Shown here: positions 1,164-20,772 of the stretch, piece after piece | Numbering within the stretch: position 1 is the first letter of the stretch | Layout of the letters: each line of letters begins with the position of its first letter | From: a virus | Length of the DNA stretch: 27,479 bases | Virus record (IMG/VR): IMGVR_UViG_3300020190_000292 | Span: 1-27,479 of that record | Strand: one strand, 5' to 3' | Notes under the pieces: generated by a model | What the model was told of the DNA's origin: nothing | The model's database searches: none | What the model saw: only the letters and a program-made list of their open reading frames with translations | Position numbers and translations under genes: made by a program

Positions 1164-3911
1164 ATGCAAGTATATAATGCGTTACAACTAAAAAAAGGAG
1201 CTAAGGTAGAACAGAACCGCATGGGTAGTATTACACAACCTTTGCAGTTTGTCCCAAAAACTGATAAAAATGAAGAGTGGGCAGCTTGGAATTTAGACTG
1301 GTTAGAATGGAATGGTCTAAAACAAATAAGAAGAAATGCAAGAAGATTGCTCAAAAACTATAAACTTGCAAAAGGTATTATAGATAAAACAGACTATATT
1401 GTTGAAGAAGATAATGAGTATAGAGACATTGTAGAGATTCTTACCAAAGAAGATGCTTCTGCACTTGAGTTAAAATTTTATCCTATAGTTCCAAATGTAA
1501 TTAATGTTCTAGTAGCTGAATTTGCTAAAAGATCAACTAAACTTACATACCGTGCTGTTGATGAATTCTCATATAATGAGATGCTTGAGCAAAAACAAAA
1601 GATGGTTGAAGAAACTCTAATGGCAGATGCTCAAGTAAAGCTTACTGCAGCTTTATTAGAACAAGGTTTAGATTTAGCATCACCAGAGGCTCAAGAACAA
1701 CTTAATCCAGAAAAACTAAAAACTCTTCCTGAAATAGAACAATTCTTTAAGAAAGATTATAGATCTATGATTGAAGAATGGGCTACACATCAACATAAAG
1801 TAGATGTTGAAAGATTTAGAATGGATGAGTTAGAAGAAAGAGGTTTTCGTGATATGTTAATTACAGATAGAGAATTCTGGCATTTTCATATGATGGAAGA
1901 TGACTATCTAGTAGAACTCTGGAACCCAGTAGTAACATTCTATCATAAGTCTCCTGATAATAGATATATATCTGAAGGTAATTGGGTAGGTAAGATAGAT
2001 ATGCTTACAGTAGCTGATGTTATAGATAAGTATGGTTACATAATGACAGAAGAGCAGTTAGAAGCTCTAGAAGCTGTATATCCTATTAGATCCGGTGGTT
2101 ATATTGTAGGTGGTTATCAAAATGATGGTAGTTACTATGATGGTACCAAATCTCATGAATGGAACACTAATATGCCTTCACTTGCATACAGACAATACAC
2201 TACTGCAGTAGCAGGATCTGTAATGGATGGCGGAGATATTATAAATCAAATACTATCAGAAGGTGAAGATTACTTTGATCAAGGTACTGCATATTTATTA
2301 AGAGTAACTACAGGTTACTGGAAATCACAGAAAAAAGTAGGTCATTTAACTAAGGTTGCTGATAATGGAGAAGTAACAACAGAAATAGTAACAGAAGATT
2401 ACAAGATAACTGATAAAGCTATTTATGATACTAGACTTTTTAAAAATAAAACAAAAGATAATATCATATTTGGTGAACATATAGATTGGATCTGGATTAA
2501 TGAAGTTTGGGGTGGTATAAAAATTGGACCAAATATTCCATCATTTTGGGGTATGAATAACCCAGGAGGATTCTCACCTATTTATATTGGTGTAGATAGA
2601 AACCATATAGGCCCTCTTAAATTTCAATTTAAAGGAGACAGTACTTTATATGGTTGTAAGCTTCCAGTAGAAGGTTCTGTTTTTTCTGATAGAAATACTA
2701 AGTCAACAGCACTTATTGACTTGATGAAGCCATACCAGATTGGATATAACATTGTCAATAATCAGATAGCTGATATACTAGTTGATGAACTGGGTACTAT
2801 CATTATGCTTGATCAAAATACTTTACCAAGACACTCATTAGGAGAAGACTGGGGTAAAAATAATTTGGCTAAAGCATATGTTGCAATGAAGAATTTCCAG
2901 ATGTTACCATTGGATACTTCTATTACAAACACAGAGAATGCATTAAACTTCCAACATTTCCAAAAACTAGATCTATCTCAGACAGAAAGATTAATGTCTA
3001 GGATACAGTTAGCTAATCACTTTAAACAGCAGGCCTATGAAGTAATTGGTGTTAATCCACAAAGAATGGGACAACAATTATCTCAGATGACTGCTACTGG
3101 AGTAGAACAAGCGGCTGCTGCTTCTTATGCCCAAACAGAAATGTTCTTTATACAGCACTGTGATTATTTAATGCCAAGAGTACATCAAATGAGAACTGAC
3201 CTAGCTCAGTACTATCATTCTACTAAACCATCTACTAGATTAACCTATATTACTAGTAATGATGAGAAAGTAAACTTTCAAATAAATGGAACTGATTTAT
3301 TGTTAAGAGATCTAAATATATTTGCTTCTACTACAGCAAACCATAGATCTGTACTAGAACAGTTAAAACAATTAGCAATGACTAATAATACTGCTGGAGC
3401 AAGTATCTATGACTTAGGTAGAATAATACAATCAGATAGTATTGGTCAACTTAATAATGTTCTCAGAGATTCAGAATCTAAAGTACAAGCTCAAAAACAA
3501 TCTGAACTACAACAACAGCAGCAAATGCAAGAACAACAATTACAAGCACAAGCTGAAGAAGGAAAACTTAAAAGAGATCATGAAGCTATGGAAGCTGAGA
3601 AGAATAGACAGAAAGATATTCTTATTGCAGAAATTAAAGCTGCTGGATACGGCTCTATGGCAGATGTTAATAAAAATGAAATGTCTGATTTCCAAGATGC
3701 TATGAAAGATATCAGACAAAGTGAACAGTATGAACAACAAACAAGTTTACAAAGAGAAAAACAAGTAAATGAAAATACTAGACAGAATCAAAAAATGAGT
3801 ATTGAAAGAGAAAAAATACAAGCACAAAAAGAAATAGCAGATAAGCAGTTACAGATAGCAAGAGAGAACAAAAATAAGTTTGATTTTAAATCTAGTAAAG
3901 ATAAAAAATAA
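1164..3911 (+). CDS. Portal protein with long Gln-rich coiled-coil tail
   Basis: A 915-residue protein directly after the terminase, the standard place for the portal that forms the dodecameric DNA channel at one capsid vertex. Length and position fit the large portals of crAss-like phages. The N-terminus carries a basic amphipathic stretch (RRNARRLLKNYKLAKG, about residues 57-72). The middle is a mixed alpha/beta body rich in aromatic residues. From about residue 769 to the end the chain becomes Gln, Glu and Lys rich with poly-Gln runs, predicted by eye as a long helix or coiled coil that could form the portal barrel reaching into the capsid. The chosen ATG lies 5 bases after the terminase stop in an A-rich leader. 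Assignment rests on position, size and overall resemblance rather than one diagnostic motif. Confidence 0.85.
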   Translation: MQVYNALQLKKGAKVEQNRMGSITQPLQFVPKTDKNEEWAAWNLDWLEWNGLKQIRRNARRLLKNYKLAKGIIDKTDYIVEEDNEYRDIVEILTKEDASALELKFYPIVPNVINVLVAEFAKRSTKLTYRAVDEFSYNEMLEQKQKMVEETLMADAQVKLTAALLEQGLDLASPEAQEQLNPEKLKTLPEIEQFFKKDYRSMIEEWATHQHKVDVERFRMDELEERGFRDMLITDREFWHFHMMEDDYLVELWNPVVTFYHKSPDNRYISEGNWVGKIDMLTVADVIDKYGYIMTEEQLEALEAVYPIRSGGYIVGGYQNDGSYYDGTKSHEWNTNMPSLAYRQYTTAVAGSVMDGGDIINQILSEGEDYFDQGTAYLLRVTTGYWKSQKKVGHLTKVADNGEVTTEIVTEDYKITDKAIYDTRLFKNKTKDNIIFGEHIDWIWINEVWGGIKIGPNIPSFWGMNNPGGFSPIYIGVDRNHIGPLKFQFKGDSTLYGCKLPVEGSVFSDRNTKSTALIDLMKPYQIGYNIVNNQIADILVDELGTIIMLDQNTLPRHSLGEDWGKNNLAKAYVAMKNFQMLPLDTSITNTENALNFQHFQKLDLSQTERLMSRIQLANHFKQQAYEVIGVNPQRMGQQLSQMTATGVEQAAAASYAQTEMFFIQHCDYLMPRVHQMRTDLAQYYHSTKPSTRLTYITSNDEKVNFQINGTDLLLRDLNIFASTTANHRSVLEQLKQLAMTNNTAGASIYDLGRIIQSDSIGQLNNVLRDSESKVQAQKQSELQQQQQMQEQQLQAQAEEGKLKRDHEAMEAEKNRQKDILIAEIKAAGYGSMADVNKNEMSDFQDAMKDIRQSEQYEQQTSLQREKQVNENTRQNQKMSIEREKIQAQKEIADKQLQIARENKNKFDFKSSKDKK

Positions 3912-5286: not shown

Positions 5287-6903
5287 ATGGCAACTCCAGT
5301 TTTAAACAATGGTATCTTTCTACGGGATACAGCCTATGCGGCAAGTTCACACGTAGACTCTTACCACTTGGTTAACATGTTGAAGGATGCAGAACCAATG
5401 GATCTAGGTCCAGTGGACCTTTGGGCTATGGCTCAGAAGGTTGAAATGCCTCTTTACCAAATGTCTAGCTTTGGTGGTAAAAATGTAATTATGGTAGATA
5501 ATGCTCGTGGAGAGTACAGATGGCAGACTCCTGTATCTGTAGATCTTCCTTACATTATTGAAGATATTGAACCAGACAATGAGTTCAAAGGTGTAGATGG
5601 TGGTACTTTCCGTATCAAAATCAGCAAAAGAGAATTTGGTCATGGTGATATCATTACTTATGATAAGTATAATGGTGTTGAGATGTACATTACAAATGAA
5701 GATATCTTACCAATTGGTGATGGATTCATCTATACTGTACAACTTGTAAATAATGACAATTATAAATATCTTGAGAATAAGTATTTATCAAATGGTACTA
5801 AAGTATTCCGTAAAGGTTCTGCTAGAGGTGAGTATGGTGAAAGATTTTCTGACATCATCACTAATGCAGGTTTCCGTGAATTCTACAACTTTGTAGGTGG
5901 TGCTGAAGCTCACGTACATTATTCTATCTCATCACGTGCAGACTTGATGATTAAAGGTGGAATGAATGCAGATGGTACAGTTCCTGTAACTGAGATCTGG
6001 AGAACTTTTGATAAAACTATGGATCCTTCAATCACATCATTAGATGATATGATTAAGAAACTTGGTAAAGATAAAGTTAAAAGAGCATTTGATAATGGTG
6101 ATCTTTCTAGAACATTCTTAACTACAATGGAAGCTGCTCACTTGAGCAAAGTTGCTTCTGACATTGAGACTTACTTAATGTGGGGACATGGTGGTAGAGT
6201 GCGTCAAGATGGTCCAGATGATGTTAGATTATCTGTGGGTCTTTGGAAACAGTTAGATAACTCTTTCAAAAGAGTATATAACAAAAATAACTTTACACTT
6301 GATTTGTTCCGTGGAGAAATCTATAACTTCTTCAATGGTAAAGTTGAGTTCCAAGGTCCAGATCCAAAAAGATCTCTAGTAGTTCAAACTGGTATGGGTG
6401 GTATGCGTATGGTAAATGAAGCTATCAAAAGAGAAGCTATCTCTTCTGGTCTTCTTATCCAAGCTGCTGACATTGGTGCAATTACTGGTAAAGGTATGGA
6501 CTTGAACTTTGGGTTTGCTTATACTTCATATGTAATTCCATTCTTGGCAAATGTTAAGTTTGTTCTTAACCCAGCATTTGACAATGTTCATACAAATGAT
6601 ATTGAGAACCCAATCATTGATGGTTTCCCATTATCTTCTTACTCATTCATTATCTTTGATATCACTGATAATACTAATGATAATATTTACATGTTAAAAT
6701 TATCTTGGGATAATCAGTTGAAGTGGTGGTATCAAAATGGTACTATGGACTACATGGGAAGAACTCAAGGGTTCCAATCTTCTGGTCAGTTCAATGGATA
6801 CCGTGTAATGATGTCTCAGACAATGCCAGCTATCTGGGTTAAGGATCCAACTAAAGTCCTTAAGATTGTTATGAGAAACCCAATCACTGGTGGTTCATTC
6901 TAA
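5287..6903 (+). CDS. Major capsid protein (HK97-fold, crAss-like type)
   Basis: A 538-residue protein after the scaffold candidate and before a strong terminator. Length and position match the major capsid proteins of crAss-like phages, and the Gly/Asn/Asp-rich mixed alpha/beta sequence fits an HK97-fold shell protein. It opens MATPVLNNGIFLRDTAYAAS and contains a probable extended loop or arm region around residues 80-130 and a long helical stretch around residues 260-300. Codon choice differs from its neighbours: by hand count about 18 of 31 Phe codons are TTC, and AAC, ATC and CGT are frequent, whereas nearby genes strongly prefer TTT, AAT and AGA. That fits selection for very high expression. 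No signal peptide or transmembrane segment is visible. The start is the ATG after an AAATAAAA leader; no earlier start is in frame nearby. Confidence 0.85.
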   Translation: MATPVLNNGIFLRDTAYAASSHVDSYHLVNMLKDAEPMDLGPVDLWAMAQKVEMPLYQMSSFGGKNVIMVDNARGEYRWQTPVSVDLPYIIEDIEPDNEFKGVDGGTFRIKISKREFGHGDIITYDKYNGVEMYITNEDILPIGDGFIYTVQLVNNDNYKYLENKYLSNGTKVFRKGSARGEYGERFSDIITNAGFREFYNFVGGAEAHVHYSISSRADLMIKGGMNADGTVPVTEIWRTFDKTMDPSITSLDDMIKKLGKDKVKRAFDNGDLSRTFLTTMEAAHLSKVASDIETYLMWGHGGRVRQDGPDDVRLSVGLWKQLDNSFKRVYNKNNFTLDLFRGEIYNFFNGKVEFQGPDPKRSLVVQTGMGGMRMVNEAIKREAISSGLLIQAADIGAITGKGMDLNFGFAYTSYVIPFLANVKFVLNPAFDNVHTNDIENPIIDGFPLSSYSFIIFDITDNTNDNIYMLKLSWDNQLKWWYQNGTMDYMGRTQGFQSSGQFNGYRVMMSQTMPAIWVKDPTKVLKIVMRNPITGGSF

Positions 6904-8179: not shown

Positions 8180-8518
8180 ATGCCAAAGGATTCTTGTTAT
8201 CATAGTGTAAAAGCGCGGTATGCCGTGTTCCCTTCAGCAAGGGCTTCTCAAGCTATTGCTAAATGTCGTAAAGGTAAAGGGCAAGTAAGGAAGACCAAAG
8301 AAGGTTCTGATCTTAAAAGATGGCAAGCAGAAAAATGGCAAGATACTAAAACAGGAAAAGCTTGTGGTGCCGGTGGTAAAAATGAATACTGCCGGCCTAC
8401 AAAAAGAGTATCAAAGGATACTCCTAAAACAAAGTATGAACTAACTCCTTCTAAACTAGCTGCTAAAAAAGCTGAGAAGTCTAGAGTAGGTATGGGAAGA
8501 AGGGTTAAAAAAGTATAG
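8180..8518 (+). CDS. Small basic Cys-containing phage protein (DUF5872-like)
   Basis: A 112-residue basic protein one base after the previous stop. It opens MPKDSCYHSVKARYAVFPSA and has Cys at 6, 29, 62 and 71, with a CYHxVKxRY, FPSAxAS, KCRK, then KACGAGG and YCRPTKRVS pattern. This resembles a small family found in marine phages and large viruses (I associate it with Pfam DUF5872, from memory). The four Cys and one His could bind a metal, but spacing is wide. The C-terminus is Lys/Arg-rich. The stop is TAG, followed 2 bases later by the next ATG. Molecular role unknown; its basic charge and cluster suggest nucleic-acid or virion association. Confidence 0.7.
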   Translation: MPKDSCYHSVKARYAVFPSARASQAIAKCRKGKGQVRKTKEGSDLKRWQAEKWQDTKTGKACGAGGKNEYCRPTKRVSKDTPKTKYELTPSKLAAKKAEKSRVGMGRRVKKV

Positions 8519-8520
8519 TA

Positions 8521-8757
8521 ATGGCAATTAAAAAAACAACAAAATCAACACCAGCTAAGAAATCTTCTTCAGTTGGTATTTCTATTTTAGGTGGAAACAA
8601 AGCAGACATGAGAAAATGGGAAATTGAATCTGCTATGTCTACATTACAAAGAGCTGCTGAGATTCAGAAGAATGCTAAGTTAATGGCAGATGTAAAAAAA
8701 CTAGCAGCAGAAAAAGCAAAAGAGTTTAATAATCTTGCCTCTGGCAAAAAAATATAA
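8521..8757 (+). CDS. Small helical basic protein, function unknown
   Basis: A 78-residue protein. Residues 1-20 are Lys/Thr/Ser-rich and probably disordered. Residues 25-75 form a strongly predicted amphipathic helix or helical hairpin (MRKWEIESAMSTLQRAAEIQ to the C-terminus), and the chain ends GKKI. I recall similar short WE-x-E-x-A-x-x-TL-x-x-A proteins from uncultured phages but no known function. It may pair as a coiled coil. It starts 2 bases after the previous TAG stop. Confidence 0.65.
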   Translation: MAIKKTTKSTPAKKSSSVGISILGGNKADMRKWEIESAMSTLQRAAEIQKNAKLMADVKKLAAEKAKEFNNLASGKKI

Positions 8758-8772
8758 GTAAATAAATATAGT

Positions 8773-8904
8773 ATGGCAACAAAAAAAGAAATTCCAGCTT
8801 ACATAGAAACAGCACCTGGAAAATTTGTATTGAATCCTGCTTATGTAAAAGCAGAAGAAAAAAAAGAAACAGCAAAAACTACTACTACTAAAACTAAGAA
8901 ATAG
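8773..8904 (+). CDS. Very small Lys/Thr-rich protein
   Basis: A 43-residue reading frame, ATG 8773 to TAG 8902-8904, between two clear genes and in register with the cluster. It opens MATKKEIPAYIETAPGKFVL and ends in a Lys, Glu and Thr-rich tail (TTTTKTKK). The start has an AATAAATATAGT leader of the kind seen elsewhere, and the stop overlaps the next GTG start by one base (TAGTG), which suggests translational coupling. The middle motif APGKFVLNPAYV looks structured rather than random. No family recognised. Confidence 0.6.
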   Translation: MATKKEIPAYIETAPGKFVLNPAYVKAEEKKETAKTTTTKTKK

Positions 8905-9179
8905 TGGCAAAGTCTCCAGCATGGCAAAGATCTGAAGGAAAGAATAAGACAGGTGGTCTTAATGCTAAAGGTGTTGCTTCCTATAGAAGAGAAAATCCAG
9001 GTAGTAAACTTAAGACAGCTGTAACTACTAAACCTTCTAAACTAGACCCAGATAGTAAATCTGCTAAAAGAAGAAAAAGTTTTTGTGCTAGGTCTGCAGG
9101 ACAAATGAAAATGTTTCCAAAAGCTGCAAAAGATCCAAATAGTAGATTAAGATTAGCAAGAAAAAAATGGAATTGTTAA
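8904..9179 (+). CDS. Small basic protein with EGKN..GGLNAKG motif (DUF6321-like), GTG start
   Basis: A 91-residue basic protein beginning at GTG 8904, overlapping the preceding TAG by one base. It carries SPAWQRSEGKNKTGGLNAKG followed by VASYRRENPGS and, at residues 56-62, KRRKSFCAR, then a C-terminal RLARKKWNC. This block is one I associate with the phage family Pfam DUF6321 (recalled, not searched). Cys at 61 and 91. The highly ordered motif argues for a conserved role, perhaps virion or DNA binding given the charge, but no activity is known to me. An out-of-frame ATG at 8921 does not compete. Confidence 0.7.
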   Translation: MAKSPAWQRSEGKNKTGGLNAKGVASYRRENPGSKLKTAVTTKPSKLDPDSKSAKRRKSFCARSAGQMKMFPKAAKDPNSRLRLARKKWNC

Positions 9180-9191
9180 TTTATATATAAA

Positions 9192-9584
9192 ATGAAAAAG
9201 ACTATAAAAAAAGTTGTAGCTAAAGCACCTGTTAAAAAGACAGTAGTTAAAAAGCCTATGATGAAAAAAGACGGTTTAATGAAAAAACCTTTGCGTAAAG
9301 CTCAATATGGTGATCAAGTAAAAGAGGGACCTCTTAGTGAAGAAGATACTAAAAGAGTAGATAAACTATATAATTTTTTTGTTGATACAGGAAATAGAAT
9401 TGGTAAAGGTTCAACACCTACAATTGAAGGCTATAGTTCTGTTCCACAAAGAATGAAAGAAGAGTCTGAAAAACAAATTAGATCTAGTAATACTTTTAAT
9501 ACAAGTAAGACTAACTTCAAAAAAGGTGGCACTATAAAATCTAAACCAACTAAAAAAACTGTTTTAAAATCTAAAAAGAAATAA
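9192..9584 (+). CDS. Lys-rich cluster protein with LRKAQYG and KKGG motifs
   Basis: A 130-residue protein. Residues 1-33 are a very basic leader (Lys, Val, Met, Pro). LRKAQYG follows at residues 34-40 (9291-9311). The central part is acidic and mixed (residues 40-95), and the tail carries FKKGGTIK and ends in KSKKK. The LRKAQYG block closely matches LKKAQDG at residues 28-34 of the 10080 gene, at about the same distance from the N-terminus, so these two share a leader architecture. Possible reading: a removable or targeting leader. No enzymatic motif is visible. Confidence 0.65.
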   Translation: MKKTIKKVVAKAPVKKTVVKKPMMKKDGLMKKPLRKAQYGDQVKEGPLSEEDTKRVDKLYNFFVDTGNRIGKGSTPTIEGYSSVPQRMKEESEKQIRSSNTFNTSKTNFKKGGTIKSKPTKKTVLKSKKK

Positions 9585-9586
9585 TT

Positions 9587-9910
9587 ATGAAAACAATGAA
9601 AACATGTAAAATGGGTTGTGGAAAAATGAAATCTGGCGGACCTATTAAGAAAGTAAAAAAGATGGCAATGGGTGGAATGAAATTAGCTGATAAAAATGCT
9701 AAAACATTTATTGCTGGTATGCCTAACTCTGGACCTACAGGACCAAATTACCAAGGTATTGATACTATGAAAAAAGGGGGTATTATGAAAAAGAAATCCG
9801 GAGGAACTCTTAAACCAGTTCCTGCAGATAAAGTGGGTTTATCTAAACTTCCTACTGCTGTAAGAAATCAAATGGGTTACATGAAAAAAGGTGGAGTTAA
9901 GAAAAAATAG
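9587..9910 (+). CDS. Lys/Gly-rich protein with repeated KKGG motifs
   Basis: A 107-residue protein starting 2 bases after the previous stop. Basic Gly-rich units recur: MKTCKMGCGKMKSGGPIKKV at the start, then MGGMKLADK, MKKGGIMKKKSGG and a C-terminal YMKKGGVKKK. A CKMGCGK pair at residues 7-11 could bind metal, but only two Cys are present. Between the basic blocks lie Pro/Gly-rich stretches (MPNSGPTGPNYQG). Probably flexible and nucleic-acid binding or virion-packaged; function unknown. Stop TAG. Confidence 0.65.
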   Translation: MKTMKTCKMGCGKMKSGGPIKKVKKMAMGGMKLADKNAKTFIAGMPNSGPTGPNYQGIDTMKKGGIMKKKSGGTLKPVPADKVGLSKLPTAVRNQMGYMKKGGVKKK

Positions 9911-9912
9911 TC

Positions 9913-10077
9913 ATGGCAACTAAAAAGAAGTCAGATAAAAACTGGATACAAAAGGCTACAGCCTCTATTAAACGTAGAGGTACTGCTGGAAAATGTACTC
10001 CTATAACTAAACCTGGTTGTACTGGTAAAGCTAAAACTTTAGCACTTACATTTAAAAAAATGGCTAAAAATAAATAA
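9913..10077 (+). CDS. Small WIQKA-type basic protein
   Basis: A 54-residue protein, 14 of them Lys, from ATG 9913 to TAA 10075-10077, 2 bases after the previous stop and 2 before the next gene. It has KNWIQKATASIKRRGTAGKC, then TPITKPGCTGKAKTLALTFK and KMAKNK. The pattern of a WIQKA opening, Cys at 28 and 36 and a basic terminal helix recurs in short proteins from phages of many hosts, as I remember it, but the role is undefined. It may have been missed because it is short. Confidence 0.65.
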   Translation: MATKKKSDKNWIQKATASIKRRGTAGKCTPITKPGCTGKAKTLALTFKKMAKNK

Positions 10078-10079
10078 TC

Positions 10080-10457
10080 ATGAAAAAAACTAATAAAGTT
10101 CACCCTATTACAGCATTTAGAAAAGCTAATGAAGCTAGACAAGCTGTAGTTAAAAAGTCATTGAAAAAAGCTCAAGATGGAATTGAGACAAATGATATGA
10201 TGATTAACAAACCAGGTTCTACAGGTGGTTATAAAAATACAGGTAATCCACTTTCATCAATTGCAGGAAGTCTGCGCCCTGATATAGATCTTTTACGGGA
10301 AAAGTCTAAAGAAGCAGTAAGAGCCAACTTAAGTAATGCATATAATGATGCAATAAAAAAATATGTAAATCCAGAAACTGAGGCAATGAATAAGCTGTAT
10401 CCAAATTATCAAATACCTTCTCAGAAAAAAGGTGGAGCTATAAAAAGAAAAAAATAA
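10080..10457 (+). CDS. Lys-rich cluster protein with LKKAQDG and KKGG motifs
   Basis: A 125-residue protein, last of the small cluster. A basic leader (residues 1-27) is followed by LKKAQDG (10161-10181, residues 28-34), a Gly/Thr/Asn-rich region, a helical charged stretch (about residues 65-115), and a C-terminal QKKGGAIKRKK. Leader plus KAQ block match the 9192 protein, and the C-terminal KKGG matches several cluster members and the last gene of the window. Function unknown; virion or DNA association is suggested by composition and context. Confidence 0.65.
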   Translation: MKKTNKVHPITAFRKANEARQAVVKKSLKKAQDGIETNDMMINKPGSTGGYKNTGNPLSSIAGSLRPDIDLLREKSKEAVRANLSNAYNDAIKKYVNPETEAMNKLYPNYQIPSQKKGGAIKRKK

Positions 10458-10460
10458 AAC

Positions 10461-11159
10461 ATGCTCAATAGTACTATTACCATAAAGATGAAACAAAGGC
10501 TTAACAAGCTTGACAGTCAAGACTATGATAACATAGAATGCTGGCAAGTAGTTGAGTCTTTTAATAAAGCTCAGGTGGAATGGGCTAGAAGGCAGTTGCA
10601 TGGGATTAATCCTGTGAGAGAAGGAGATGAACAATCTACCAGAAGAAAAGATGATCTTCAGGCTCTACTTGTTACAAATGCGCTTTCTTTACAAGATAAA
10701 GATTATTATTATAGGACTACTATTCCCGGAGATTATTTACAATGGAAAAGAGTAGATGTCTTTGCTCAAAAAGGTTGTTGTGATAAAAGACGTATGACTG
10801 TTTATTTGGCAGAAGAAGGAAATCTTAATCAGCTTCTTAGAGATAAAGCAAAGCAACCAAACTTTGAATGGGCAGAAACTTTTGCCACACTAAAAGGAAA
10901 TGGTGTAAATATTTATACAAATAATGATTTTGATATTTCACAAGCAGACTTAGTTTACTATAGACAACCTATTAAAATACAAATACAAGGTTGTATAGAT
11001 CCTTATACTGGAATTGCATCTACAACAGAAGTACAATGTGAATTTAAAGATGATATTATAGAATTAATAATAGATGAAGCAGTTAGTATACTTGCTGGAG
11101 ATATTGAGTCTGGAAACCAATTCTCAAGAGGTACAGAAACTGCTGAACGTAACAACTAA
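10461..11159 (+). CDS. Structural neck/adaptor-type protein
   Basis: A 232-residue protein starting 3 bases after the previous stop. It contains RLNKLDSQDYDNIECWQVVE, then AQVEWARRQLHG, KRVDVFAQKGCC, VYYRQP and a C-terminal IIDEAVSILAGDIES. I recognise this as a conserved structural protein of uncultured Bacteroidota phages and crAss-like relatives, probably a head-to-tail adaptor or ring-type protein: small, alpha/beta, ending in a helix. The C-terminal AGDIES and GTETAERNN tail is typical of that group as I recall it. An internal Met at residue 10 is a possible alternative start. Exact place in the neck cannot be read from sequence. Confidence 0.65.
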   Translation: MLNSTITIKMKQRLNKLDSQDYDNIECWQVVESFNKAQVEWARRQLHGINPVREGDEQSTRRKDDLQALLVTNALSLQDKDYYYRTTIPGDYLQWKRVDVFAQKGCCDKRRMTVYLAEEGNLNQLLRDKAKQPNFEWAETFATLKGNGVNIYTNNDFDISQADLVYYRQPIKIQIQGCIDPYTGIASTTEVQCEFKDDIIELIIDEAVSILAGDIESGNQFSRGTETAERNN

Positions 11160-11161
11160 TT

Positions 11162-11680
11162 ATGGAAACAAAAACTAGATTATTAAAAAGAAATCCAGAG
11201 CCTACTAGAACAATTAGTAGACCAGAAGTTACTGTAACTCAACCTAAAGAAGAACCTGCTAAACCACAACCAACTCCTGATACAGGTGTAGGTGGTAGTT
11301 CATTAGATACTATGGTTGCAGCATGTGCTACAGAAATGATGAATGCTGCAATTAGTTTTCATAAATTACATTTAAAAATAAAAGGTGAAGGATCTTATGC
11401 TGCACATATTGCATTAGGTGGATTTTATGAAGGACTACACGGACATGCAGATACATTAGTTGAAGGATACCAGGGTGTATCTGAAAAATTACTTTCATAT
11501 AAAGATTCTCCAATTAGAACTTTAGATACAGTATCTGATGGTGTAGGATATTTAAGAGATTTATACAATAGCATTACCAAACTACAAGGAATGTTACCTT
11601 ATTCTGAAATAGTAAATAATCTAGACTTAGTAAAAGACTCAATTAATTCTACTAAGTACAAATTACTTTTCTTAAAATAA
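11162..11680 (+). CDS. Dps-like ferritin-fold protein (DUF5856-like)
   Basis: A 172-residue protein. Residues 1-45 are Pro/Thr/Glu-rich and probably disordered. Residues 50-172 look like a four-helix bundle of the Dps/ferritin type. The signature is FHKLHLKIKG at 66-75 (compare HWNVKG in Dps) and HADTLVEG at 95-102 (compare the Dps DxxAER helix). In E. coli Dps the ferroxidase ligands are H51, H63, D67, D78 and E82. At matching spacing this protein has H70, H82, Gly86 in place of the first Asp, D97 and E101, so four of five are kept. H67, H93 and H95 add further metal-ligand options. Similar viral proteins are grouped, as I recall, in Pfam DUF5856. Dps normally forms 12-mers that oxidise and store iron and can shield DNA. 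Its place inside the structural module suggests either a virion part or a late DNA/iron protein. Confidence 0.7.
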   Translation: METKTRLLKRNPEPTRTISRPEVTVTQPKEEPAKPQPTPDTGVGGSSLDTMVAACATEMMNAAISFHKLHLKIKGEGSYAAHIALGGFYEGLHGHADTLVEGYQGVSEKLLSYKDSPIRTLDTVSDGVGYLRDLYNSITKLQGMLPYSEIVNNLDLVKDSINSTKYKLLFLK

Positions 11681-11742: not shown

Positions 11743-13455
11743 ATGGCTTATTTTAATCATGCGTTTAGAAAAACGTTTTTAGCAACTGGTGTCTCTCAAT
11801 CTACATCAGTTACTTTATTAGACGGTTCAGTAGTTAATGCTCAAACCCAAGGAGGTGTATTAGAGACTAGTGGATTACCAACTTATGTACTTAATTCTTT
11901 ATCTGCAAGTGCAGAAGCAGATAATAGTACATATGAATCTGGTTATGTTGGAATCTTTAATTCAGGTTCACAACTATCAGCTAGTGATCAGGATCTAAAT
12001 AATTGTTGTAATGTATTTATTGCAGGTTCTGCAATATACAATAATGACAAAATTGGTCCTTTTGCAGGAGGTTATACTGAAACTAACAAGTCTAAAGTTA
12101 TTAATCCTAAATATGTATCAAGATTTTATTCTGTTGATGCATGTGAACCACAAAATGAAATAGTACACGTAGGTTCTACATATTATACATATGGTGCTGG
12201 TGCTACTGTTCCTGTAGGAGGAATAGCTAATGTTAGTTTTGCAGGTGGTCCAGCTACAGGTCTTGCAGCTAATCTTGTAAATGCGTTAATTCAACTTGAT
12301 GGTGGAACAGGAACTGGTGCAACTATTGTAGTTACTACAAATGGTTCAGGTCTAGTAACATCTTATAGTGTACTTTTAAATGGTACTGGTATTGGTAAAG
12401 GATATACTGTAGGTGATGTACTTACTATTCCTGGAGATACATCAGGTACTTTTGAAATTACAGTTACTGCTATTCAACCAACAGGATTTGATCCTATTAC
12501 AGGAGCTGGTGGTACTGCATGTTGTAAAGAATTTTTATGTGGTGAAACATATTCATTACGTTTAGATATTAAAGGTTCTCCTGCATTACGTTACTTAAAT
12601 CACAATGCTTACTTAACTGTAGATGCATATACAGGATGTTGTCCAGAAGGTTCAATTGCACCAGTTGCAGTTAACTCAACAGAAGTATTTATCAAATGGG
12701 CAGATGCTATTATTAATTCACCTATAGTAAATCCTTTTGTAAGAATTGTTGTACAAGATGAGGCTGGTGTTCTTTGGTATGCTCCAGGAACTTCTGCAGC
12801 AGATTTAGCACAATTAGGTGGTGATACTTGGGATAACTATCCTGCAGGAGTTGCTCACGTAGATGGTGCATGTGCAGGTTTAATTATTGCAGGTGCTTAT
12901 GTGGATACTAAATTTGGTGATTGTACATTCCAATTAACTGACTTCTATGAAAAAGAACCAGTTAAACTTTACTTATCTGAAGTAGACTACAATGGTGATC
13001 CATGTACATTTGATGGTATCTGTGTAGTTCATGAGTGTTTAGCAACTCAAGCTAATGGTTTAGGTGAGACTATGTTAAGAGATTTAATTCTTTCTGAGTC
13101 TTACAGACAAAACTTCTTGGCAACAGATCTACGTATCCGTGAGATTACTCAAGGAAACCAATTGGTAACTGCAATTAATAGATCAGCATTATATGATGCA
13201 TTGTATCTACAACATAATGTTCCAAGATTTAATAATCCATCAGGAGTGTTTGATAATGATCAGTACTTGCTACAACTTATTTTCCCGACTGGTTCTACTG
13301 GTTATAATTATGCAATAGATTTAATTAATGGATGGTTAAGTAATTGTGGTGTATGTCAATTAGAAGGATATGGTTGTGAAACATCTTGTGAAGTTCCTAT
13401 TACTTTTCCTCCATTACCACTTAAATCAAAACGTAAAGGAGACGTTAGATTCTAA
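11743..13455 (+). CDS. Large virion structural protein with Gly-rich beta insertion
   Basis: A 570-residue protein with its own candidate promoter upstream and a strong terminator downstream, a layout fitting an abundant virion component. It opens MAYFNHAFRKTFLATGVSQS, a start I recall from structural proteins of related uncultured phages. Residues about 146-262 form a Gly/Thr/Val-rich region with IGKGYTVGDVLTIPGD, a beta module seen as inserts in many marine phage virion proteins. Cys pairs (CC at about 86 and 257, CC in YTGCCPEG) and the C-terminal CGVCQLEGYGCETSC suggest disulphides or metal. The C-terminal part (residues 435-500) reads like a helical interaction region (LRDLILSESYRQNFLATDLR). 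It may be an auxiliary capsid, tail-tube or surface protein; I cannot decide which. Codon choice drifts towards TTC/AAC near the end. Confidence 0.65.
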   Translation: MAYFNHAFRKTFLATGVSQSTSVTLLDGSVVNAQTQGGVLETSGLPTYVLNSLSASAEADNSTYESGYVGIFNSGSQLSASDQDLNNCCNVFIAGSAIYNNDKIGPFAGGYTETNKSKVINPKYVSRFYSVDACEPQNEIVHVGSTYYTYGAGATVPVGGIANVSFAGGPATGLAANLVNALIQLDGGTGTGATIVVTTNGSGLVTSYSVLLNGTGIGKGYTVGDVLTIPGDTSGTFEITVTAIQPTGFDPITGAGGTACCKEFLCGETYSLRLDIKGSPALRYLNHNAYLTVDAYTGCCPEGSIAPVAVNSTEVFIKWADAIINSPIVNPFVRIVVQDEAGVLWYAPGTSAADLAQLGGDTWDNYPAGVAHVDGACAGLIIAGAYVDTKFGDCTFQLTDFYEKEPVKLYLSEVDYNGDPCTFDGICVVHECLATQANGLGETMLRDLILSESYRQNFLATDLRIREITQGNQLVTAINRSALYDALYLQHNVPRFNNPSGVFDNDQYLLQLIFPTGSTGYNYAIDLINGWLSNCGVCQLEGYGCETSCEVPITFPPLPLKSKRKGDVRF

Positions 13456-18473: not shown

Positions 18474-19055
18474 ATGAAGGAATTTAAGCAACCTGACATT
18501 AGTGCTCCAAGATTTAGACCTAGAGTACACAACATTTTAGAAAAAGAGTTCTTTGACAGTTTTAAAAAAAAATTTTCTAGATATAAGAATCTAGAAAATA
18601 GTGTTTTAAAAAATATTATAAAGACATACAATAAAACATTATTCAATACAGTAATTGAAACAAGAGATGGTATACAACTACCTGAATCATTAGGCTGGTT
18701 GTTTATTGGAACTTGTCAAACAAGTAAAAAGAAAAATGTGGATTTTGGTAAGTCTTTAAAATATGGAGTAACTGTAACTAATAACAATTTAGGAACAGAC
18801 GGTAAACTAGCTAAAATATTTTATAGCAATAGTGCTAATAAGCATAAAATTAAAAATAGAGAATTTTGGGGGTTTACTGCTTGTAGAGAATTCAAAAGAT
18901 CAGTTGCTAAATCATATCCGGAAAACTGGAATATGTATTTGGTAGTTGAACCAAAATTACAAATTAAAACACAATATAGTAAAACTGTTTATAAAAACAT
19001 GTTAAAGACAAAGACTCTACATGCTTTAAAAAACTATAATGAATTTGATATATGA
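18474..19055 (+). CDS. Conserved protein upstream of the ring genes, possibly IHF/HU-like
   Basis: A 193-residue basic protein opening the last transcription unit. Its N-terminal half is helical (residues 15-62). Then comes RDGIQLPESLGWLFIG (residues 64-79), weakly like the GxVxLPGFGxF turn of IHF/HU proteins, followed by beta strands and a C-terminal REFWGFTACREFKRSVAKS. Crassvirales carry IHF-like genes near the ring proteins, which supports but does not prove the idea. I recognise the sequence as recurring in this phage group without a firm function. The stop overlaps the next ATG by 4 bases (ATGA), so the two are probably translationally coupled. Alternative: a neck or assembly cofactor. 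Confidence 0.55.
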   Translation: MKEFKQPDISAPRFRPRVHNILEKEFFDSFKKKFSRYKNLENSVLKNIIKTYNKTLFNTVIETRDGIQLPESLGWLFIGTCQTSKKKNVDFGKSLKYGVTVTNNNLGTDGKLAKIFYSNSANKHKIKNREFWGFTACREFKRSVAKSYPENWNMYLVVEPKLQIKTQYSKTVYKNMLKTKTLHALKNYNEFDI

Positions 19056-19729
19056 CAACAATAGGTGAAGCAATATCAAGAGTTAGAAATACTCTAAAGG
19101 CAGTTAAAGAAGATCCTTTCTTGACTGATAGAACTATATATTTTTCATTACTTAAGTATGGTCAAACTCTTCTTAAAAGAGAAGATAACCAATTTAGACT
19201 AATGAAAATAAGTTCTATATTTAATGTTTTACCTTATGTAGAATTAATTAGTGTAGATAAAGTAGAAGCTCAATGTATTGGTGTATATTCAGGTTGTTAC
19301 TTTAAAAGATCTAAAGAAAAATTACCCACTATACTTGATGGTATATTTGGTCCTATTATACGTACTGTATCTTCTATAGATGGCTCTATAGAATTATACA
19401 GAACTGATCCGGGTACATGGGTATCTATGACTAAGAGTACTACTTTTAAATATAATAAGAAACAATACTTTTGGTATCTTAATGGTTATTTATATTTACC
19501 AAATGTAGACTGGGACGCAGTTAGAGTTGAAGCAATATTTCAAGGAGATACATTAGGTTATCAATGTGGAGAAGATAATAAAGATTCTTGTGTAATTAGA
19601 CAAGACCAACCTTTACCTTTTCCAGAATATTTATTTTCTGAAGTAGAGCAATTTGTAATTAAAGAACTTACTATGGCTATACAAGTACCTACAGATGGTG
19701 CTGATGATAGTCAAAATTCACTTAGATAA
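19052..19729 (+). CDS. Ring protein 1-type tail connector (P22 gp4-like tail accessory factor)
   Basis: A 225-residue protein whose first 70 residues (TIGEAISRVRNTLKAVKEDP, then LTDRTIYFSLLKYGQTLLKR) form the helical start typical of crAss-like ring protein 1 and P22 gp4-type tail accessory factors, which sit under the portal and extend the DNA channel. The rest is beta-rich, with FGPIIRTVSSIDGS and a C-terminal helix EVEQFVIKELTMAIQ. The order ring 1, ring 2, muzzle is that of crAss-like phages. ATG 19052 overlaps the previous stop; the gene ends in TAATG with the next. Confidence 0.75.
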   Translation: MTTIGEAISRVRNTLKAVKEDPFLTDRTIYFSLLKYGQTLLKREDNQFRLMKISSIFNVLPYVELISVDKVEAQCIGVYSGCYFKRSKEKLPTILDGIFGPIIRTVSSIDGSIELYRTDPGTWVSMTKSTTFKYNKKQYFWYLNGYLYLPNVDWDAVRVEAIFQGDTLGYQCGEDNKDSCVIRQDQPLPFPEYLFSEVEQFVIKELTMAIQVPTDGADDSQNSLR

Positions 19730-20772
19730 TGGATTATAATTATACACTCCGGTACCGTACATTTGACCAGTTATTGGAAGATGTATCTGTTGATTTAAAT
19801 ACATTTGCTTTAGAGAACATGATAGAGCCACAGACTCTTATCAAGTTAGCTAAAAAATTAAACTATGATTTAGGTTTAAGAATAAATCAACAGAAAGAAA
19901 TTATATTAGAAGTCTGTCATGGTAAAGTTAAATTACCTGATGATTTTTATACATTTAACTTTGCATTTGTTTGTGGTGAATTTGAACAAAGAGTAGGTTA
20001 TGATGGATGGGCTTCTGGTACTAATGTACAAGAAGTACCTTATCAAGAAGTACCTAGTACAACAGATACATGCGCAGCACCCACAATAAACTGTAGAACC
20101 TGTAATTCTAATCCATGTAATCATACAGCAGCTTGCGGACTTAATTATCCTATAGCAGATCCAATACCTACTCAGTATGATCCTAACAATCCATACGGAG
20201 ATACTTGTATTGCTCCAAGAGTTTTTATGAATTGCAAAGGTGAACAATATGAATTAGTACAAATTATAAATACAAGTAATGTAAGAATATATAAAAATCT
20301 TATTCCACTTAGAATGAAGGCTAGTCAAGAAATAGAATGTGACTGTCCTAATCTTTATTATAATACTGTAAACCAAGGTTGGATTAAAGGAGGTTTTTTA
20401 TTTACAACATTTCAAACTGGAAAAGTATATTTAAACTATCAGGGTCAGATGGAAGATGATCAAGGTAACTTATTGGTACCAGATCATGATCTTATAAATG
20501 AATATTATGAGTATGCATTTAAACAAAGAATTCTTGAGAATCTATATATGAATGGGGAAGATGTAATGCAAAGACTTCAACTTGTTGAACAAAGATTAAG
20601 ACCTGCAAGAAATCAAGCTCTCACCGTAGTTAATACTCCAAACTTTAAAGAAATGGAACAACTATGGTGGACAAATAGAAAAGCAATGTACTCTAAGTAT
20701 TATGATATGTTTAAATCATATTCTCCTAATAGTGCTTATTATAGAAACCTAGGATTTAATAGAGTAAAATAA
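19729..20772 (+). CDS. Ring-type tail connector with Cys-rich insert
   Basis: A 347-residue protein overlapping the previous stop by one base. The N-terminal TLRYRTFDQLLEDVSVDLNT, PQTLIKLAKKLNYDLGLRIN and VKLPDDFY (residues 7-74) and the C-terminal LINEYYEYAFKQRILENLYM and ARNQALTVVNTPNF are, as I recall, conserved in the second ring/neck protein of this phage group. Between them, residues 115-169 form an insert with seven Cys (115, 122, 125, 130, 136, 160, 169), preceded by a short QEVPYQEVP repeat. The insert is likely exposed, perhaps a metal or disulphide knob. One base separates it from the muzzle gene. Confidence 0.7.
   Translation: MDYNYTLRYRTFDQLLEDVSVDLNTFALENMIEPQTLIKLAKKLNYDLGLRINQQKEIILEVCHGKVKLPDDFYTFNFAFVCGEFEQRVGYDGWASGTNVQEVPYQEVPSTTDTCAAPTINCRTCNSNPCNHTAACGLNYPIADPIPTQYDPNNPYGDTCIAPRVFMNCKGEQYELVQIINTSNVRIYKNLIPLRMKASQEIECDCPNLYYNTVNQGWIKGGFLFTTFQTGKVYLNYQGQMEDDQGNLLVPDHDLINEYYEYAFKQRILENLYMNGEDVMQRLQLVEQRLRPARNQALTVVNTPNFKEMEQLWWTNRKAMYSKYYDMFKSYSPNSAYYRNLGFNRVK

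Follow-up and report, generated by a model that had tools for sequence, protein, structure and literature searches.

What does a ferritin-fold protein do among the virion genes of a phage? The question is raised by a 172-aa protein encoded by a freshwater phage related to the crAss phages of the gut, in a virus record of 27,479 bases (the window: the whole stretch of DNA that was analysed). A sequence-only reading had described the protein as Dps-like, placed its gene in the structural module, and named a virion part, an iron store for late infection and a DNA protector as candidate roles. The gene and the neighbours that define its setting are as follows.

11162-11680, + strand: Dps-like (DUF5856 / PHROG 858) gene, 172 aa, ATG start (Pfam, PHROG, AlphaFold)
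10461-11159, + strand: crass-type tail-barrel ring protein, 232 aa, the upstream neighbour (predicted fold)
11743-13455, + strand: 570-aa downstream neighbour, the other border of the slot (next homologous gene in 119 of 119 visible loci, retrieved using the Dps-like gene itself)
5287-6903, + strand: major capsid protein (Pfam Crass_capsid, E=3.4e-29)
1164-3911, + strand: portal protein (PHROG 6547, E=3e-93)
19052-20772, + strand: tail ring proteins 2 and 1 (Pfam CrAss_Ring_2, E=5e-22; CrAss_Ring_1, E=1e-9)

The open reading frame is genuine and begins 2 bp past the upstream virion gene. Its location in the structural module is upheld, immediately 3' of a tail-ring gene. The AlphaFold model of the 232-aa neighbour matched the phicrAss001 tail-barrel chains 7qoj_D/E/F with Foldseek (E=3e-12, TM 0.76). 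Comparison with the phicrAss001 rings using hhalign gave weak homology; the ring identity came from the fold. On the basis of Crass_capsid, Ring_1, Ring_2 and this third ring protein, recognized by fold, the window is assigned to the Crassvirales.

The 172-aa protein is a member of Pfam family DUF5856 (PF19174; 47.5 bits, curated cut-off 34.6) and matches PHROG 858 with E=2.9e-16. DUF5856 is likewise matched by all 75 aligned family members. The classical ferritin family PF00210 gave no match to the 172-aa protein and weak matches to 10 of the 75 members (best E=2.4e-4). When searched against the PDB, a profile of the 75 members matched Dps proteins (E=3e-6), and the single sequence had no significant match (E 0.4). 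A search for DUF5856 in the literature library used here returned nothing. A tblastn search matched the 172-aa protein to Escherichia phage Lw1 (E=4e-3), a phage grown on E. coli BL21. Close relatives were found at only three loci in bacterial genomes, one of them a phage contig in a Sphingomonadaceae metagenome-assembled genome (MAG). The contig binned in such a MAG (L130, RFPL01000035.1) has the gene order of the source phage and is probably a misbinned phage contig.

Residues at the predicted metal site were counted in 216 family members, drawn from IMG/VR, phage records and three bacterial-genome contigs.

11369-11371, + strand: His70, position of Dps H51 (216 of 216)
11405-11407, + strand: His82, position of Dps H63 (216 of 216)
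11417-11419, + strand: Gly86, position of Dps D67 (G 132, N 73, S 4, D 3, A 1, Q 1, R 1, E 1; n=216)
11450-11452, + strand: Asp97, position of Dps D78 (216 of 216)
11462-11464, + strand: Glu101, position of Dps E82 (216 of 216)
11360-11362, + strand: His67, first His of the HxxH motif (215 of 216)

The sequence-only reading had aligned H70, H82, D97 and E101 with four Dps ligands at exact spacing, and held that orthologues without these residues would speak against it. The spacing is exact, and all four residues are invariant throughout the family. The other open reading frames at the same loci, 857,750 residues in all, contain no instance of the pattern H-x11-H-x14-D-x3-E, and its chance expectation is approximately 7e-5 per protein of 172-aa size; given this rarity and the invariance, the pattern is not due to chance. 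As judged from this alignment, the four predicted ligand positions are under strong constraint. The motif HLKIKG was also correctly placed at the Dps HWN(V/L)KG position, since phmmer aligns it without gaps to HWNLKG of Agrobacterium tumefaciens Dps and HWNVNG of Brevibacillus brevis Dps.

The glycine reported at the D67 site is likewise real, and the protein thus lacks a residue that is a ferroxidase criterion of Dps. Position 86 is Gly or Asn in 205 of the 216 members and acidic in four, so loss of the Asp is a mark of the family rather than an oddity of one protein. It had been suggested that additional histidines could signal a different metal chemistry. This does not hold for His93 and His95, which occur in 57 and 84 of 125 members of the clade and are nearly absent outside it; this lack of conservation rules them out as added ligands and places them outside the metal site. 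His67 is indeed conserved. It is not extra, however, as it has a counterpart in several known Dps proteins with an HxxHW motif (1n1q; NapA).

Structure prediction separated the protein into two parts.

11162-11299, + strand: basic, proline-rich disordered tail, residues 1-46, with an LKR...ISRP motif (pLDDT 60-70)
11300-11677, + strand: four-helix core, helices 47-72, 78-107, 124-144 and 148-170 (AlphaFold)

The AlphaFold model, built with 75 relatives, has a mean pLDDT of 87.8, with core blocks at 91-98. The ferritin fold claimed from the sequence is borne out by this prediction, which yields a four-helix bundle nearest to Dps. The top match in VIA-align was Dps2 of Mycobacterium smegmatis (Z 16.2, 126 residues, 2.2 Å), followed by further Dps and ferritin-like proteins. 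Foldseek searches of the PDB gave modest E-values, and the best among the matches listed were again Dps and ferritin-like proteins. Both the fold and the metal site are well supported. A region matching the ferritin-like fold also occurs in three phage proteins of 333-763 aa that are named “prohead protease” in the BFVD (A0A6J7WIS1, A0A6J7WPK9, A0A6J7XDU5); these may be head proteases that are naturally fused to a ferritin-like domain.

Canonical Dps proteins have a short helix in the loop between helices B and C. DSSP assigned no helix to this loop of the model, between residues 107 and 124, and the C-D loop is very short; contacts within the oligomer may therefore differ from those of Dps. 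The four-helix bundle, the HxxH...H spacing, the D78 and E82 equivalents and the profile match are shared with Dps, whereas the Gly/Asn at the D67 position, the two loops and a low identity set the protein apart. While it would work like Dps, it is not filed as Dps because it lacks both an Asp at the D67 position and a B-C helix; DUF5856 is a branch beside Dps within the ferritin superfamily. With the D67 equivalent missing, the second iron site appears less well preserved than the first, and Gly or Asn in its place could weaken binding of the second iron.

Invariant H, H, D and E and a C-terminal YKL are common to DUF5856 and PHROG 858 as a whole. The source clade differs in its 46-residue basic tail and its fixed slot behind the tail-ring gene. 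In a sample retrieved using the Dps-like gene itself, the order ring gene, Dps-like gene, 570-aa gene was found in all 119 loci where both sides are visible. A sample retrieved with the capsid protein gave 51 slots, of which 42 hold the Dps-like gene, one holds a ferritin and eight hold neither; the gene is therefore common yet dispensable. In addition, the more distant group of Leptolyngbya phage Lbo-JY46 has no Dps-like gene. An essential structural part is excluded by these empty slots and by the absence from the Lbo-JY46 group.

The one ferritin in the capsid-retrieved sample, at locus L236, is of the classical type (PF00210, E=1e-19). A search with its sequence identified 25 contigs that carry a ferritin immediately behind the ring gene (L236, L310-L328, L333-L336, L338, L339). 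These slot ferritins share the genomic position, a similar N-terminal tail and the superfamily with the Dps-like proteins, but are FtnA-type proteins of PF00210 with an intra-bundle ferroxidase centre. Residues E17, E50, H53, E94, E126, Q127 and E130, which in FtnA numbering make up the ferroxidase centre, are invariant among them, indicating that the centre is complete. At one locus (L318:6001-7057), a ferritin gene and a Dps-like gene stand in tandem, both with a KI[VP]RP-type tail. In a tree of capsid and ring proteins, the branches with good support require the ferritin label to change at least five times.

Because the two proteins replace each other, the slot is likely to select something common to Dps-like proteins and true ferritins, of which ferroxidation with iron storage would be the obvious common denominator. 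The iron role considered in the sequence-only reading is favoured by this occupation of the same slot by ferroxidase-complete ferritins; that the 172-aa protein itself carries out iron chemistry is what we infer. In the literature library searched, we found no account of Dps-like proteins and ferritins replacing each other behind a common tail in a slot of the virion module.

The tail is retained across this exchange. That of the window protein reads METKTRLLKRNPEPTRTISRP. The ferritin tail at L323, MEAKPRMLKKPEG, resembles the Dps tail at L017, MEAKPRMLKRTTEP, and the two loci are neighbours in the tree; likewise, the ferritin tail at L236, MKTIPRPTVFSVKGP, resembles the Dps tail at L318, MQKIPRPSVLSAKAP. 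In a pool of 1,895 N-termini, 5.2% of them Dps-like, the best match was a Dps-like tail for 12 of the 16 distinct ferritin tails, compared with 1-3 of 40 in the control families. The contrast is plain in these comparisons, although the associated p-value of 6e-13 is too small since the sequences are not independent. The common tails could stem in part from recombination between short homologous stretches where the genes begin. Purifying selection acts on the tail, with a dN/dS of approximately 0.20 (0.13 in the core). As the tail is kept while the core changes, it is best read as an address, and we propose that it is a targeting peptide. It is no general feature of the family, given that members of the L131-type subfamily are tailless.

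A basic tail would also suit a nucleoid-type DNA binder, in which the tail sits on phage DNA, the core is a scaffold and iron is irrelevant. The net charge of the tail averages approximately +3.3, a related PHROG family is labelled as a DNA binding protein, and the virion modules of crassviruses contain HU/IHF-like genes. This explanation is nevertheless highly improbable: it leaves the four invariant metal ligands (216 of 216) and the exchange for a ferroxidase-complete ferritin unaccounted for, and the core itself is acidic (net charge -3.3 in the Dps-like proteins, about -10 in the ferritins).

Repeated exchange of the Dps-like protein for a true ferritin behind the same short N-terminal tail suggests that iron proteins are loaded into the particles of these phages. 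One line of evidence comes from the Salmonella phage Sajous1, whose gp217 was detected with 10 mass-spectrometry spectra in CsCl-purified virions and named a ferritin by its authors using Phyre2; they caution that contamination may explain low counts (PMC10892097). In our analysis, gp217 is assigned to the same family (DUF5856, E=1.3e-28; PHROG 858, 7e-44) with the ligand pattern H, H, Gly, D, E. It differs from the 172-aa protein in its length of 117 aa, the lack of a basic tail, and its phage family and neighbours. No virion proteomics was found for the group of the source phage. The proposal of a virion part thus stands at the level of the family, through Sajous1 gp217, and fails for an essential structural part, as 8 of 51 slots hold neither gene. 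The genes flanking gp217 (gp215 and gp216, L343:14080-14898) have T4-like capsid-targeting starts, MKPFIEYFKE (read in phage EP75) and MKGFPDFLKE, and their products were detected in virions (PMC10892097); these motifs and detections suggest a small operon of packaged proteins.

Other relatives are also associated with virion genes. In unrelated phages, they adjoin genes for head-tail adaptor, portal, sheath, terminase, scaffold, capsid and endolysin or lysis proteins, and the virion module of the gut crassvirus cr108_1 encodes a more remote relative that has all five ligands. Among DUF5856 members of giant phages, which are mutually related, 13 of 13 begin with MKKFSxF...[ILVF]xE, compared with 38 of 1,991 background genes. 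The capsid-targeting propeptide of T4 has the general form MKxFxxF...[ILVF]xE. Such a start is present in the giant-phage relatives only, which share it with the T4 internal proteins (PMC9026906, PMC5694885), and is absent from the 172-aa protein. In phage KP27 (L083:5929-6351), translation may begin later than annotated, at an internal Met that gives the capsid-targeting-like N-terminus MQSFKQITESE.

The position immediately 3' of the tail-ring gene would also fit a Ferrojan-horse arrangement, as put forward for Sajous1 gp217 (PMC10892097), in which an iron-loaded protein on the tail promotes attachment via iron-uptake receptors of the host. We rate this as the least probable of the explanations considered here. 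No dependence on TonB or FeoB was found for Sajous1 in the one host used (PMC10892097), and the targeting-peptide-like starts, together with the T4 parallel, favour loading of the head over display on the tail.

A more serious alternative, still unlikely in our view, is a soluble protein of the infected cell that stores iron or detoxifies peroxide late in infection and stays outside the particle, its location among virion genes reflecting late transcription only. Such a role has been proposed for phage DPS and Mn-catalases, in gut phages, by Benler et al. (PMC8008677). In phicrAss001-type phages, an annotated DpsA is encoded outside the virion block (cr106_1). The dispensability of the gene in 8 of 51 relatives and the lack of an N-terminal tail in several relatives also speak for a soluble protein. 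Conversely, the common tails on unrelated cores point to the particle, as do the giant-phage starts and the family member in purified virions.

We consider it probable, on balance, that the 172-aa protein is a DUF5856 ferroxidase made late with the virion proteins, addressed by its tail, and associated with the virion. Expressed alongside the virion proteins, it would be directed by the tail, a separate addressing module, to the assembling particle and be carried as cargo within the head or tail or bound to the particle. Iron would bind at the predicted site H70/H82/D97/E101. Fe(II) would be oxidised, probably with H2O2 as in Dps, or with O2, and the Fe(III) held in an oligomer. Whether it acts in the particle or in the host cell at a late stage of infection, the protein would keep Fenton chemistry away from the DNA and proteins of the phage. 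The phage may gain a supply of iron, or a shield against Fenton damage for its packaged DNA or for the late infection; both the loading into virions and the benefit are inferred from the genomic and family evidence above.

A broader form of this proposal is advanced more tentatively: in freshwater crass-like phages, a conserved N-terminal peptide might bring any ferroxidase of the ferritin superfamily, be it Dps-like or FtnA, into the HK97-fold virion, making the locus a dedicated slot for iron cargo. In encapsulin-loaded ferritins, a short terminal peptide directs a ferritin-superfamily cargo to an HK97-fold shell. If the proposal is true, the slot would be the phage counterpart of such encapsulins, and the particle would bring its own iron sink or supply. 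The likeness to EncFtn (PMC10536872) is one of working, through the tail-addressed cargo proposed here; the phage capsid differs in having DNA inside, the phage tail is N-terminal, and its binding to the shell is putative.

Phage Dps proteins are already known (PMC8008677, PMC6669764) and a virion ferritin has been suggested (PMC10892097). For DUF5856, which is of unknown function in Pfam and labelled a “transcriptional regulator” in phage databases, a ferroxidase role can now be put to the test. The exchange of one ferritin family for another, behind a single tail and within a single virion slot, amounts to a natural experiment, which makes the old question of iron in phage particles directly testable. 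Should the tail load cargo, crass-type capsids would have a packaging peptide of natural origin.

Further basic proteins are encoded elsewhere in the structural region. Six small, strongly basic genes (charge +10 to +24) lie at 8180-10457 of the window, and their order and number differ among relatives. Several contain KKGG motifs (FKKGGTIK, MKKGGVKKK, QKKGGAIKRKK), two match DUF5872 and DUF6321, and it is possible that they encode packaged DNA-condensing or scaffold proteins. In addition, a basic 193-aa protein is encoded at 18474-19055, directly ahead of ring protein 2. Among the virion genes of phicrAss001, its top profile match is to gp42, which is HU/IHF-like; on the basis of this weak match, an IHF-like gene of the virion module may be conserved.
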